Origin: Daejeonella sp. H1SJ63
GTDB lineage: Bacteria; Bacteroidota; Bacteroidia; Sphingobacteriales; Sphingobacteriaceae
Length of the DNA stretch: 64,000 nt
NCBI RefSeq assembly: GCF_029360775.1
Contig: NZ_JARKMZ010000028.1
Coordinates: 434,001-498,000, forward strand
Direction of reading: 5' to 3'
The notes under the pieces were generated by a model. The model made no database searches. It was not told where the DNA came from and was given only the letters and a program-made list of their open reading frames with translations. How positions within the stretch are numbered: position 1 is the first letter of the stretch; each line of letters starts with the position of its first letter. Of this stretch, positions 8,701 to 17,493 are shown piece after piece. The position numbers and the translations under genes are program-made.

Positions 8701-10455
8701 ATGTATAAATCCAGACGCGAATTCATTAAAAAGAATTCAATTACTTTACTTGGAACTACTGTATTATCAAGCACTTCAGGAAGTTTACTGGCATCAACAG
8801 CTGATTTTCTGGCGCCTCAGAATAAAGACCTGATGTTTTTTGATGCCTTTTCCCGTATCGGTCCGAGGAGGTATAAACACCCCGGCGAGAAATGGAAGCT
8901 GGAGGATCTGATCAAGGAACTGAACCATTGTTCCGTATCCGGTGCACTGGTAGCCTCTACTTTGTCACTGAGCTATGATGCGATGTATTCCAATCTGGAA
9001 TTAAGCAATAATTTAAAACCTTATCCCAATCTCTTTGCGATCTGGAACGTATTACCACACCATACCAACGAATGTCTTCCTCCGGCTCAGTTAAAACTGA
9101 AAATGACGGAGCATAATGTACGGGCGGTTACCATCCATCCCAATTCCAATGGCTGGGACTGGAGTGCTCAGTCCAGTCAGGAGCTGATGAAGTATCTGAA
9201 TGACAATAAAATCTTCACCATTACTACCGTCTCTGAAATTGGTGGCTGGAAAGAGTTGAACGAGTTTTTAGGCAGGTATAAATCCATTCCATTGCTGGTT
9301 TCCGGAATCAGCTGGGGAGAGCAGCGTTATGCGATAGGTTTACTGAAAGACCATCCGAATATGCATATCAGCTTTGACCGTCTGCAGATTAATGAAGGGC
9401 TTGAATTTTTATATAAAAGAGGACATATCAATCAATTGATCTTTGCTACCGATGCCCCAACCATGTCGGTAGGAGCGCACCGTACATATATCGACTATGC
9501 CGATATTCCGGATGAAGCCAAAGCCAAAATTGCCGGAGGAAACCTGGTTCGTCTCCTGAACGGTCAGCGTCCTCCGAAAGTTCATACCAATAAATCGGAA
9601 GATATTTTGATGACTGCCGTGCGTAACGGTAAACCGGTGCCGGTACCTGTGATTGATATGCACATGCACATGCTGCATGAAGGTATCAACGGAGCCGGAG
9701 GAACCGGTTATCACATGGAAAATGGCGGTCCGAAGGGTATTTTCAAAATGATGGAACGGATCGGTTGCGTGGGCGGCGGTTTCATGAGCTGGAACGGGGT
9801 AGTGAGTAATGACTCTGTACAGGGAAATAAACTGGTGAAAGAGGCTTTGGATGTTTCTCCGAAAGGTTTCTGGGGACTGGCAACTATGAGTCCGACACAC
9901 TATACCCAGGAAGAGTTAGCTGTCATGATTCCTCAGGTTTATTCCGACAAACGTATTATTGGTATGAAACCTTATCATTTTTACGGAATGGAATACCATA
10001 ATCCGGCTTATGATATCTGGTGGGAGTATGGAAGTAAAAATGGTTTATATGCATTGATTCATCCATCCCGTTCCGATTTATTGGAAGTTGAAAAGCTTGC
10101 CGCTAAATACCCGAATGTTCGCTGGGTGATTGCTCATGCCGGAGGCAGCTATAAAATGGCAGATATGGCCATTGCTGCAATGAAGAAATATCCGAATGTA
10201 TTTGCTGAACTGACTTTAACCCCGGTTCCTTTGGGTGTGATTGAATACATGGTTGCGGCAGTAGGAGATGACCGCTTGTTGTATGGTTCCGACTTACCGA
10301 TGCGCGATCCGCGTCAGCAATTGGGCTGGGTGGTATTCTCCAATCTTCCATTGGAAAGTAAGAAGCGGATTCTGGGAGAGAATGCCTATAAAGTAGTTGA
10401 GCCTTGTCTGAAGAATATGCCGGAACACAATATTCCGGTAGCATTCAGGAGGTAA
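8701..10455 (+). CDS. Tat-exported tandem amidohydrolase-2 protein (two fused TIM barrels)
   Basis: The leader SRREFIKKNS is a clear twin-arginine signal. Two amidohydrolase-type barrels follow. The first (about residues 40-290) opens with FFDAFSRIG, lacking the usual HxH, but keeps the strand-8-like FATDAP; it looks non-catalytic. The second (about 315-570) has H321-x-H323 (VIDMHMHM), an IAHAGG segment and LLYGSDLP, so it has the complete metal site. Two separate genes about 5 kb downstream encode the same two barrel types as individual proteins. The family hydrolyses amides, esters or lactones and can decarboxylate; the substrate is unknown. About 250 bp of AT-rich sequence with no gene precedes it, so it may have its own promoter. 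Confidence 0.82.
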   Translation: MYKSRREFIKKNSITLLGTTVLSSTSGSLLASTADFLAPQNKDLMFFDAFSRIGPRRYKHPGEKWKLEDLIKELNHCSVSGALVASTLSLSYDAMYSNLELSNNLKPYPNLFAIWNVLPHHTNECLPPAQLKLKMTEHNVRAVTIHPNSNGWDWSAQSSQELMKYLNDNKIFTITTVSEIGGWKELNEFLGRYKSIPLLVSGISWGEQRYAIGLLKDHPNMHISFDRLQINEGLEFLYKRGHINQLIFATDAPTMSVGAHRTYIDYADIPDEAKAKIAGGNLVRLLNGQRPPKVHTNKSEDILMTAVRNGKPVPVPVIDMHMHMLHEGINGAGGTGYHMENGGPKGIFKMMERIGCVGGGFMSWNGVVSNDSVQGNKLVKEALDVSPKGFWGLATMSPTHYTQEELAVMIPQVYSDKRIIGMKPYHFYGMEYHNPAYDIWWEYGSKNGLYALIHPSRSDLLEVEKLAAKYPNVRWVIAHAGGSYKMADMAIAAMKKYPNVFAELTLTPVPLGVIEYMVAAVGDDRLLYGSDLPMRDPRQQLGWVVFSNLPLESKKRILGENAYKVVEPCLKNMPEHNIPVAFRR

Positions 10456-12924: not shown

Positions 12925-13575
12925 CTATAATTTCACCATTCCCACATACCTGCTATTCGCAATCCTCTGCCTGTCGTCAGAAATAAACGAAATCCAGATA
13001 TGATGTTCTATCAAATGTCTAGACCTTTCAATCTTTACGATTTCATGTCCGGCTGAGCGCCTGGCACCGCTCATGGGACCAAAGGAAGCCCTTGTTTCTC
13101 TATCATAAATCATGATCATCACCTGATCATCCTCACGCAAATCTCCGTCTTCACCCGTATCTCCTGAATTATCCCTCCAGGAAATGATCCGCTGATCTTC
13201 CTGTTCCTCAATAGCTGCATCTTCTGCCCCGGGTAAATTACCCATACTGAAACGGAAAGCAGTATAATCGATCTCTCCTTCTTCATTAAAAGCATTCAGC
13301 ATGTTCCATGACTTGGCCGAATTATGTGCAGAATTGTGATTGCGTTTAGCCTCCAGGTTGAACCCGATACGGATAAAAGGTAAAACCGGTCCGAGAAAAT
13401 CTTGCATTTTCGAAAACCTCGACCGGCAGATATTTTGATTGGTTGAGCCTTTCCTGTTCTTAGCGGAGTATTTGGGTAAACCCCGGATTCTCCATTGACC
13501 ATATTGAAAATATCCCACGACGCTTCCGGCCTTGCCGCTGAAGCCTCCATTCGAACCACCATTTAAAATAGCCAT
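12925..13575 (-). CDS. DUF6266 family protein
   Basis: A 216-residue protein that opens with MAILNGGSNGGFSGKAGSV, the glycine-rich start I associate with DUF6266, followed by a VVGYFQYGQWRIRGLPK segment. Such proteins occur in many copies in Sphingobacteriaceae and Flavobacteriia and have no known function to me. The C-terminal half is rich in acidic residues (DTGEDGDLREDDQV) and ends in beta-like segments. There is no signal peptide or membrane helix. It is transcribed against both neighbours, so it is an independent unit inside the patchwork region. A palindrome lies about 90 bp upstream of its start. Confidence 0.72.
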   Translation of the reverse strand: MAILNGGSNGGFSGKAGSVVGYFQYGQWRIRGLPKYSAKNRKGSTNQNICRSRFSKMQDFLGPVLPFIRIGFNLEAKRNHNSAHNSAKSWNMLNAFNEEGEIDYTAFRFSMGNLPGAEDAAIEEQEDQRIISWRDNSGDTGEDGDLREDDQVMIMIYDRETRASFGPMSGARRSAGHEIVKIERSRHLIEHHIWISFISDDRQRIANSRYVGMVKL

Positions 13576-14028: not shown

Positions 14029-14514
14029 GTGAAAGACATTATAAACAAAATTTCATCGTACAACATATTTAACTACCTTTTTCCAGGAGTTTTGTTCGTA
14101 GTTATTGCAAAGAGTTTGACGGAATATAATTTTATTCAAGAGGACAACATTTTAGGTGCGTTCTTGTACTATTTTATCGGAATGGTAATCAGTAGATTTG
14201 GCTCTGTCATTATTGAACCTTTTCTTAAGAAAGTAAAATTTTTAAAATTTAGAGAATATCACAAATATATGAGTGTATCAAAAAAGGATTCAAAAATTGA
14301 ACTTTTATCAGAGGTAAATAACACTTACAGGACTTTAAATTCAATGATAGTTCTTTTACTTCTAACGAAGTTATTTAATTATCTATCAATAAAGTTTCAA
14401 TTTGATAATTCGGTGTCAATAGTAACATTGACAATATTAATTTTTATACTATTCATTTTCTCGTACAGAAAGCAAACCAATTATATCACCAAACGAATAG
14501 ACGCAAATGAATAA
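14029..14514 (+). CDS. Four-helix membrane protein paired with MBL hydrolase
   Basis: A 161-residue inner-membrane protein of no family I can name. Four hydrophobic helices are visible at about 14-30, 41-62, 104-120 and 129-146. They are split two plus two by a charged loop (63-103, LKKVKFLKFREYHKYMSVSK) that should be cytoplasmic. No catalytic motif is seen. The start is GTG (MKDIINKISS). Its last codons overlap the start of the next gene by 8 bp, so the two proteins are probably made in equal amounts and act together. Composition is clearly more AT-rich than the flanking glycan genes, which suggests horizontal acquisition. It could be a membrane anchor or pore-forming effector of a small defence or stress module; this is inference. 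Confidence 0.7.
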   Translation: MKDIINKISSYNIFNYLFPGVLFVVIAKSLTEYNFIQEDNILGAFLYYFIGMVISRFGSVIIEPFLKKVKFLKFREYHKYMSVSKKDSKIELLSEVNNTYRTLNSMIVLLLLTKLFNYLSIKFQFDNSVSIVTLTILIFILFIFSYRKQTNYITKRIDANE

Positions 14515-15412
14515 TCAACATTATAATATGAGTATAGTAAAATCATTATCTGTTGGGAATGGTGACATGTTCTATATTAAACATAACACTGACAATTTCA
14601 CTATAATTGACTGCAATATTACTGGGACAGATGATAACAAAAAAAGAATAGTTGATGAATTGATTAAAGAATCTGCATCAAAAACATTGACTAGGTTCAT
14701 TTCTACGCATCCTGATGGAGACCATTTTGGTGGAATAGAATATTTAAATAGTAGAATGCCAATAGTGAATTTCTATTGTGTAAAAAATAGTGCGACAAAA
14801 GAAATTGAGACTAATGATTTTAAAAAATATTGTGAATTACGCGATTCAGCTAAAGCATTCAATATTTACAAAGGGTGTTCAAGAAAATGGATGAATGAAA
14901 GCGATGAGACTAGAAAACAAGCAGGAATAAGTATTCTTTGGCCAGACACTTCGAATCAATTTTATAAAGACGCATTAAAAATTGCAAATGAAGGAGGCAG
15001 CCCTAATAACATTTCAGCAATGATAAAATACGGTATGCAAGATAGTGCGACAATTGTTTGGGTGGGAGATGTTGAAACAGATTTCATGAATAATATTGAA
15101 GCAGACTTGAAACTTCCTAAAACTGACATTTTGTTCGCACCACATCATGGACGTAAAACCGGTAAAATACCAAAATCTATTCTTGACGTTGTTAAACCCA
15201 AGATAATTGTAATTGGGGAAGCTGATGCTGAATATTTAGATTACTATCAAGGTTACAACACAATTACCCAAAATACAGGCGGTGACATAACATTTGAATG
15301 TGTGGAAAATTGGGTTCATATTTATTCTTCAAATGAAAATTATAGTGTAAACTTTCTGACAAATAAAAACCAATCAACTTTTAAACACTATATCGGTTCG
15401 TTAGCAGTATGA
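14507..15412 (+). CDS. Stand-alone ComEC-type metallo-beta-lactamase-fold hydrolase
   Basis: A 301-residue soluble protein with the metal-site motifs of the ComEC/Rec2 branch of the MBL fold: S66-T-H68-P-D-G-D72-H73-FGG, then GGSPNNISAM, V-G-D188-V-E, and P-H213-H214-G-R-K-T. The DNA-channel and OB parts of ComEC are missing, so it is not a competence protein. Free proteins of this type are thought to be nucleases or phosphodiesterases. There is no signal peptide, so it should act in the cytoplasm next to its membrane partner, with which it overlaps by 8 bp. An internal ATG (MSIVKSLSVG, residue 8) is an alternative start that removes the overlap. AT-rich codon use differs from neighbours. A role in phage or plasmid defence is plausible but not shown. 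Confidence 0.82.
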   Translation: MNNQHYNMSIVKSLSVGNGDMFYIKHNTDNFTIIDCNITGTDDNKKRIVDELIKESASKTLTRFISTHPDGDHFGGIEYLNSRMPIVNFYCVKNSATKEIETNDFKKYCELRDSAKAFNIYKGCSRKWMNESDETRKQAGISILWPDTSNQFYKDALKIANEGGSPNNISAMIKYGMQDSATIVWVGDVETDFMNNIEADLKLPKTDILFAPHHGRKTGKIPKSILDVVKPKIIVIGEADAEYLDYYQGYNTITQNTGGDITFECVENWVHIYSSNENYSVNFLTNKNQSTFKHYIGSLAV

Positions 15413-15740: not shown

Positions 15741-16691
15741 ATGAAAAATCGAACTGATTTTGGCTTAAATCGTAGGGCATTTTTAAGTACCGGTGGTCTC
15801 GGACTATTGGGTGCTTCCATGTCGGGGGTATTGTGTAATGTGCCTTCAAAAGAAGAAACTGAGCAGGCCTCCAATACCTTTCAGAAGGATGGCTGGAAGG
15901 CCATTATGGAATCGGCAAAGAAATATCCCAAGCTGGATGCGCATAATCACGTGTGGACCGGCAGCAATGCGGCGCAGGTGGATGAGAGCTGTGAAGCATT
16001 GGGTATTACCAAAGCAGCCTGCTCCATTCCGGGAGGGAAAACGGTGGCTGAAATCCGTGCCAATAATGATATTATCATCCAGGCCATGAAGTCGCATCCC
16101 AAGCGCATCATGGGACAATGCTATATCAACCCTTTGTTTAAAAAAGAAGCGCTGGATGAAATCGACCGTTGTGTAGACAATGGGATGGTGATGCTTGGCG
16201 AATTATATGATGCCGTAAAGATCAGTGATCCCTTATATTATCCGATAGTGGAGCGATGCATCAAGCATAAAATTCCATTGATGCTGCATGGTGTAACCAC
16301 CCTTGGCAACTGGCGTCCGGGTTATTTGCCAACCAATCCGCCAAACTCATCGGTTCCTGAAGATTTTGTTGAAATCGCCAACCGCTATCCTGAAGCCATG
16401 ATCATTTGCGGTCATATTGGTGGGGGTGGTAACTGGGAATACATGTGCCGGATTTTAAAGAAGGCGCCTACTTTATACCTGGATACCAGTGGCAGTGTCA
16501 GTGATGAGGGGATGATCGACATGGCGGTGAAATACCTTGGTGCGGATCGTTTGCTGTTCGCTACTGATATGAACTACGAAACCGGCGTGGGTAAAATTAT
16601 GTGGGCTGATCTGACTGAAGCAGACAGGAAAAAGATATTCTTTGAAAACTTTAACAATCTATTGAGAAAGGCGGGTAATCATGCTGCTTGA
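15741..16691 (+). CDS. Tat-exported amidohydrolase-2 family protein (metal-binding partner)
   Basis: A single TIM-barrel amidohydrolase of 316 residues. The leader NRRAFLSTGGLG is a twin-arginine signal; a Cys follows at SGVLCN, so a lipid anchor is possible. Metal-site features: H68-x-H70 (LDAHNHVW), MLHGVTT, ICGHIGGGG and D276 (LLFATDMN). It corresponds to the second, catalytic barrel of the fused amidohydrolase upstream. The next gene starts 11 bp before its stop, so the two are translationally linked. The reaction (amide, ester or lactone hydrolysis, or decarboxylation) and the substrate are unknown. Location between lyase genes suggests processing of a released uronate derivative. Confidence 0.82.
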   Translation: MKNRTDFGLNRRAFLSTGGLGLLGASMSGVLCNVPSKEETEQASNTFQKDGWKAIMESAKKYPKLDAHNHVWTGSNAAQVDESCEALGITKAACSIPGGKTVAEIRANNDIIIQAMKSHPKRIMGQCYINPLFKKEALDEIDRCVDNGMVMLGELYDAVKISDPLYYPIVERCIKHKIPLMLHGVTTLGNWRPGYLPTNPPNSSVPEDFVEIANRYPEAMIICGHIGGGGNWEYMCRILKKAPTLYLDTSGSVSDEGMIDMAVKYLGADRLLFATDMNYETGVGKIMWADLTEADRKKIFFENFNNLLRKAGNHAA

Positions 16692-17493
16692 TATTAATGC
16701 ATTCGTGGGCCACTGGCCATTCAGAAATTTAAGAGGGAATAATCTTAAAGATCTGCTGAAACGTATGAATACCTATGGGGTGGATAAGGCTATTGTATCT
16801 AACCTGAACGGGATCTTCTATGTAGACGGACAGATTGCCAATGAAGAGTTATTTGCAGAGCTGAATTCAGATCCATTGTTTAAAGATCGTTTTATTGCTT
16901 TTGCAACTATTAACCCGGTTTTGCCCTGGTGGAGAGATGCGCTGGAAACCTGTCACAAAGAGTTTGGGATGAAAGGAGTACGGATATTTCCGGTATATCA
17001 TCATTACAAACTTACCGATAATGCCTGCATCGAAATGGTGAAGGCTGCCAGAGATCTGGGTATGGTTGTTTCCATTCCGCTTCGTATGACTGATCTGAGA
17101 GAAAGATCCTGGCTGGATGTGGATAAGGCGATCAGCTATAATGATGTTGCAGCATTGGTTGCTAAGGTGCCTGATGCCAAATACATGATTCTGGAAGCCA
17201 GAATTACCGACGGACAGGAGCCTACCACGGCTGAGTCTGTTAAAATACTGAAGGCTGCTGATGTGCTTTTTGATACCTCAAGAGGCAGCGGAGTGGCTGT
17301 AAAGGGTCCTAACAGCGAAAGCCTGACCTATTTACTGGAGAATTTCGGCGCAGATAAACTGGCTTTTGGTACGGAAACTCCTTTTGTGGATTATACCTCC
17401 CCGTTTTTAAGACTCGGAGTTTTTAAGGCCATTGATGAGAATACCAAACAAAAGGTATGGTCGGGGAATGCCCTGCGCATGCTTAAACTTTAA
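16681..17493 (+). CDS. Degenerate amidohydrolase-2 barrel, likely partner subunit
   Basis: A 270-residue barrel that starts directly with MLLDINAFVGHWPFRN. The usual HxH is absent, and the strand-8 segment reads FGTETPF rather than xxxD, so metal catalysis is unlikely. It matches the first, non-catalytic barrel of the fused amidohydrolase. It has no signal peptide although its overlapping partner carries a Tat leader. Because Tat exports folded complexes, it may travel as a passenger; otherwise the protein would remain in the cytoplasm. The start is fixed by the 11-bp overlap with the preceding gene. It is followed after 58 bp by the second lyase. Confidence 0.75.
   Translation: MLLDINAFVGHWPFRNLRGNNLKDLLKRMNTYGVDKAIVSNLNGIFYVDGQIANEELFAELNSDPLFKDRFIAFATINPVLPWWRDALETCHKEFGMKGVRIFPVYHHYKLTDNACIEMVKAARDLGMVVSIPLRMTDLRERSWLDVDKAISYNDVAALVAKVPDAKYMILEARITDGQEPTTAESVKILKAADVLFDTSRGSGVAVKGPNSESLTYLLENFGADKLAFGTETPFVDYTSPFLRLGVFKAIDENTKQKVWSGNALRMLKL

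Follow-up and report, generated by a model that had tools for sequence, protein, structure and literature searches.

The Sec pathway threads unfolded chains, and a bound partner cannot be carried along with such a chain. The FAD glucose dehydrogenase of B. cepacia is reportedly a Tat hitchhiker complex. According to two reports, the Tat pathway moves folded complexes, and hydrogenase 2 (HybO-HybC), PaoABC and formate dehydrogenase of E. coli are such hitchhikers (PMC4273604, PMC10924467). For PaoABC, the subunits are reported to be interdependent (PMC4273604). It is also stated in the second of the two reports that leaderless passengers, which are tail-anchored in that study, are hard to detect from sequence (PMC10924467). 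The gene pair described here resembles the Tat hitchhiker complexes in that one subunit has a predicted Tat leader, the partner is leaderless and the genes lie together. The known hitchhikers, as far as these sources describe them, catalyse redox reactions and hold metal or flavin cofactors, whereas the pair consists of non-redox Amidohydro_2 paralogues, one of them metal-less; unlike in the known complexes, in relatives of the pair it is the other subunit that bears the leader, or the two are fused.

With respect to fold, the best PDB matches of the models of both proteins of the pair belong to the same families, of the gamma-resorcylate decarboxylase and ACMSD types. The fold is shared with gamma-resorcylate decarboxylase, ACMSD and LigJ, and the first protein of the pair also has their HxH, His, His, Asp metal set. 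The solved Amidohydro_2 matches are presumably homo-oligomers of one active chain; in the pair, unlike in those enzymes, the partner is a diverged, metal-less paralogue, and the pair is predicted to be exported. For ACMSD, the title of PDB entry 4ifk states that an arginine from the neighbouring subunit is essential for catalysis. In the literature searched, which is a part of what is in print, no Tat hitchhiker amidohydrolase pair of this kind was found.

The gene pair of Daejeonella

The window is the whole stretch of DNA that was analysed, 64,000 nucleotides of Daejeonella sp. H1SJ63. The features of the pair, in window positions, are the following.

15741..16691, plus strand: ORF1 (P0002), 316 residues, Amidohydro_2 barrel that keeps its metal ligands and has a Tat leader at its N-terminus
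15741..15839, plus strand: residues 1-33 of ORF1, the Tat leader region, of low confidence in the AlphaFold model
15768..15788, plus strand: twin-arginine motif of ORF1, N-R-R-A-F-L-S in the window and kept in relatives
16663..16665, plus strand: TGA in the frame of ORF2, 6 codons before its start, which closes the frame and leaves no room for a leader
16681..17493, plus strand: ORF2 (P0003), 270 residues, Amidohydro_2 barrel without a leader, metal ligands lost
16681..16691, plus strand: 11-nt overlap ATGCTGCTTGA, holding the start of ORF2 and the stop of ORF1, of invariant length in type A relatives

In the N-terminus of ORF1, MKNRTDFGLNRRAFLSTGGLGLLGASMSGVLC, a hydrophobic stretch comes after a twin-arginine motif, which bears out the proposal of the initial annotation that the first gene has a Tat leader. 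In the AlphaFold model, residues 1-33 mostly have a pLDDT below 50, and strand 1 starts at residue 65. ORF1 scores 79.7 bits against Pfam Amidohydro_2 (PF04909), above the curated cut-off of 26.4, and its metal ligands H68, H70, H183, H225 and D276 (HxH, His, His, Asp) are invariant in the 22 aligned relatives. The host genome encodes TatC and has three TatA-family matches, and thus has a Tat translocase.

ORF2 scores 43.8 bits against the same Pfam family (cut-off 26.4) and is 93% identical to its counterpart in Daejeonella sp. JGW-45, Daejeonella being the nearest named relatives. The same annotation had ORF2 beginning at its first β-strand with no leader; this also holds, as the first strand of the model (pTM 0.88) comprises residues 3-9 and the upstream frame is closed. 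The TGA 6 codons upstream leaves no hidden leader within the window, and a stop at the same spacing is found in 52 of 56 relatives. ORF2 is therefore without an export signal, as is the signal-less partner of a hitchhiker complex. The metal set is replaced in the aligned type A degenerate barrels (30 rows), and ORF2 lacks the metal residues; it retains other invariant polar residues, among them H107, D138, R140, W144 and D146.

The Tat leader was also considered as a hallmark of the pair, and this is weakened by the 9 further Amidohydro_2 proteins that the genome encodes: when read by eye, 4 of them have Tat-type leaders, 4 have Sec or lipoprotein leaders and one has none. Because Tat leaders are this common among the Amidohydro_2 proteins of the genome, the leader of ORF1 alone is no evidence of a passenger. 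In other genomes, the leaders of solitary members, as read by eye, are Sec-like, and many of these proteins have no leader. Throughout, leaders are assigned from the motif, the hydrophobicity and inspection by eye, and the leader counts have no trained predictor behind them.

Type A relatives, their overlap and their neighbours

Pairs arranged as in the window are referred to as type A; the set consists of the window, 56 loci that were found by scanning named genomes, and six more. Among the culturable relatives with the pair are Daejeonella lutea DSM 22385 and Niabella aurantiaca DSM 17617 (loci L072, L083 and L071). Many of these loci are closely related, so that the counts concern non-independent events, and the key independent contrasts are three, namely type A, type B and the haloarchaeal fusion (both described below). 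The overlap of the two genes is exactly 11 nt in all 62 examinable loci, and none of these 62 was seen to have a leader on the second gene. A Tat-type motif is present on every type A ORF1 with an intact 5' end (60/60), reading RR in 58 and RK in two (L051 and L130); the hydrophobic stretch of these leaders was measured for most of the 60. Outside this count are L069 and L131, where the contig ends within ORF1, and L035, where ORF1 is not visible. Three loci with a shortened ORF2 (L081, L084 and L086) are absent from the main locus table and were read separately, and the motifs of L055 and L014, missed or misread by the motif pattern of the script, were read by eye. The recurrence of the pair in every examinable relative, with an invariant overlap, makes the architecture more than chance.

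The third base of ORF2 codon 3 is T in 56 of 56 loci, preserving the TGA of ORF1, and the codon itself varies between Ile, Val and Leu. The spacing to the next downstream ORF on the same strand ranges from -4 to 2099 nt (50 loci). We infer from the invariant overlap, set against this variable downstream gap, that there may be selection for translational coupling. It could also be argued that a programmed +1 frameshift within the overlap joins ORF1 and ORF2, so that there is no free second subunit, since the overlap is invariant, ORF2 lies in the +1 frame and a fused orthologue exists. Nevertheless, the first codon of ORF2 is a start codon in all 56 loci (54 ATG, 2 GTG), and ORF1 has GAT, AAT, GGT, GCT, AGT or CGT as its final sense codon, which to our knowledge are unlike known slippery sites. 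Such a frameshift is disfavoured by both observations and is considered very improbable.

Several type A loci depart from the common form. In L079 (5091-6008), the metal-site barrel has lost the HxH motif (KIDSYCTADPQ) and has retained the Tat leader and the paired degenerate barrel. The aligned HxH is missing in 3 of 30 type A metal-site rows; L079 is a true loss, L043 is out of register, and there is one more. Some leaders, among them those of L049, L050, L058 and L132, end in lipobox-like sequences (LAGC, LTGC, VAGC), and some metal-site subunits may thus be Tat lipoproteins. In L013 (1-495), a partial second gene for a metal-site barrel lies directly upstream of a complete pair, which suggests tandem copies.

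Among the frequent leader-bearing neighbours in the 56 loci are ceramidase-like proteins (21), kelch proteins (19), Tat-tagged DegT proteins (18) and heparinase-like proteins (12), and these neighbours suggest that a glycan, or what is derived from it, may be broken down outside the cytoplasm. Beside the pairs of L096 (13040-14428), L051 (6929-8296) and L132 (from 2326) lie DegT/DnrJ-type aminotransferases that carry Tat-type leaders; PLP enzymes of this kind are usually found in the cytoplasm. Upstream of the pair in the window, positions 14029-15412 hold a two-gene cassette that matches PDC-M48A (E 2.3e-66) and PDC-M48B (E 1.8e-141), two models of candidate phage-defence genes, and a DUF6266 protein is encoded at 12925-13575 on the minus strand, within the same apparent insertion. 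In L010-L012, about 100 nt separate ORF1 from the end of a ceramidase-like ORF upstream, and it is for this reason that the stretch of the window with the PDC-M48 cassette and the DUF6266 gene looks inserted.

Orthologous pairs and single-chain forms

In Balneolaceae, the orthologous pair (type B) has the reversed gene order, with the degenerate barrel (P0004) first and the metal-site barrel (P0005) second. In genome G223, P0004 carries the Tat-type leader MNRRRFIKDTLLLAALA and P0005 is leaderless. A degenerate barrel with a Tat-type leader together with a leaderless metal-site barrel is found in all five type B loci with both genes visible; in a sixth, L129, the first gene is cut by the contig end, and this locus is outside the count. 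The last metal ligand is His instead of Asp in P0005 and its relatives (5/5). The type B genes do not overlap, being separated by gaps of 31 to 271 nt, which indicates that coupling is not universal.

Redox-enzyme maturation proteins are encoded beside Tat substrates, and ORF2 could be a dedicated cytoplasmic chaperone or proofreading factor for ORF1 of a comparable kind. This would be consistent with ORF2 being leaderless, devoid of metal ligands, always paired, and coupled to and adjoining the gene of a Tat substrate. Such a factor would be cytoplasmic and leaderless in every lineage; in type B, however, it is the orthologue of ORF2 itself that is Tat-tagged (5/5), with its metal-site partner leaderless. 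This swap of the leader between types A and B argues against a cytoplasmic chaperone role, as do the haloarchaeal proteins described below, in which the two barrels form one chain without a leader, and we regard a chaperone function as unlikely. Export of ORF2 by itself to the periplasm, through an unrecognised leaderless route, has nothing to recommend it beyond the missing leader; type B would need the same route for the other barrel, and the structure of the pair explains export without it, so that this alternative is given hardly any weight.

A tblastn search against plasmids identified haloarchaeal two-barrel proteins of 558-565 residues (6 proteins on 5 records), in which the metal-site barrel precedes the degenerate one, as in the order of the window, and none of the six has a leader. 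Their neighbours include Gfo/Idh oxidoreductases, a ceramidase-like protein on one record and a DegT aminotransferase on another. The N-terminus of this ceramidase-like protein is MTFTPSTLPHEAQL, without a visible leader; the ceramidase-like relative in the window carries a leader. As both the fusion and the ceramidase-like protein are leaderless, at least these two look cytoplasmic in haloarchaea.

The orthology of the three forms is seen in a maximum-likelihood tree of 83 barrels, in which type A, with 59 pairs tabulated, is represented by 14 (in another tree by 30). The metal-site barrels of all three forms, namely type A, type B and the haloarchaeal fusion, cluster together (UFBoot 97), and their degenerate barrels form a second cluster (UFBoot 100). 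The inner branching conflicts, type B joining the haloarchaeal proteins for the metal-site barrels (84) and type A joining them for the degenerate barrels (94). The profile cross-scores agree with the grouping, the barrels of the three forms being mutually best for both barrel kinds; after their own profile, the degenerate barrels of type B score best with that of type A (median 118.9 bits).

Strict pairing is also observed. Among 392 sampled genomes, 5 strong places in 4 genomes match the degenerate-barrel profile, and the metal-site profile finds 5 places in the same 4 genomes, all adjacent to these, plus three fusions of the P0001 type described below; no solo copy of either barrel family was seen in this sample. 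Three weaker matches of the degenerate-barrel profile (E 6e-5 to 1.6e-4), of which two were read and both have HxH, are taken as probable ordinary Amidohydro_2 proteins. It has also to be considered that the two barrels act apart, ORF1 in the periplasm and ORF2 in the cytoplasm, linked by co-regulation only, and one visible leader per pair would be in agreement with this. Against it stand the orthologous single-chain fusion, the invariant overlap, the obligate pairing and the leader that belongs to one barrel in type A and to the other in type B; separate compartments are accordingly rated as quite improbable.

The window itself also encodes a single-chain protein with two barrels.

8701..10455, plus strand: P0001, single chain with a degenerate barrel followed by a metal-site barrel, and one Tat leader (MYKSRREFIKK)

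This protein had been put forward as a fused homologue that exports both barrels with one Tat leader. The protein and its Tat leader are real, but its halves are not orthologues of the two barrels of the pair, and their order is reversed. As a Rosetta stone orthologue it was rejected, its halves falling outside the two families of the pair in the tree and in the profile cross-scores; P0001 and its relatives thus appear as a distant, separate two-barrel lineage. With non-orthologous halves in the opposite order, P0001 is weak support for a passenger. The nine proteins of this type are like the pair in combining a degenerate and a metal-site barrel and, in some, in having one Tat leader; they are unlike it in their separate lineage and reversed order and in being mostly leaderless. 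Tat leaders are present on P0001, L098 and L104, five of the nine have no visible leader (L100, L101, L102 and L103, from other Bacteroidota, are fusions in which no leader is visible), and one is Sec-like: L118 has a hydrophobic, Sec-like N-terminus, as compared with the Tat leaders of the other three.

Proposed export of the assembled pair

The suggestion that a leaderless barrel is carried by its Tat partner appears to fit the comparative evidence best, on grounds other than those originally given. It is favoured by the strict pairing, the invariant overlap, the orthologous pair with the swapped leader and the orthologous fusion. With one leader per pair, borne in each case by the first gene though on opposite barrels in types A and B, and with a single chain in haloarchaea, the simplest explanation would be a two-barrel unit that functions as an assembly and is exported as one. 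From these sequence comparisons, the pair is quite likely an obligate two-barrel enzyme that comes together in the cytoplasm and leaves it as a Tat hitchhiker complex, the leader being supplied by whichever gene stands first.

In the proposed mechanism, ORF1, the metal-dependent barrel, and ORF2, the paralogous barrel whose metal site is lost, would together make up one enzyme. The 11-nt stop/start overlap would couple the translation of ORF2 to that of ORF1, and ORF2 would then bind ORF1 in the cytoplasm. Folded as a heterodimer or in a larger oligomer, the two would be exported by TatA/TatC by means of the ORF1 leader, with ORF2 as the hitchhiker.

More tentatively, and with somewhat more reserve than conviction, it may be suggested that the leader has changed partner in evolution: a non-redox hitchhiker would be fused and leaderless in haloarchaea and exported via opposite subunits in two bacterial lineages. 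The conserved residues R101, H107, R135, D138, R140, W144 and D146 of the degenerate barrel may be part of an active site that it shares with its partner, in which case neither activity nor readiness for export would be expected before assembly.

Orthologous pairs with the leader on opposite partners, together with an orthologous fusion, provide a pointer to a co-exported complex that can be obtained from sequence only. If the reading of ORF2 as a hitchhiker is true, the ORF2 family acts outside the inner membrane, though an annotation based on leaders would place it in the cytoplasm.
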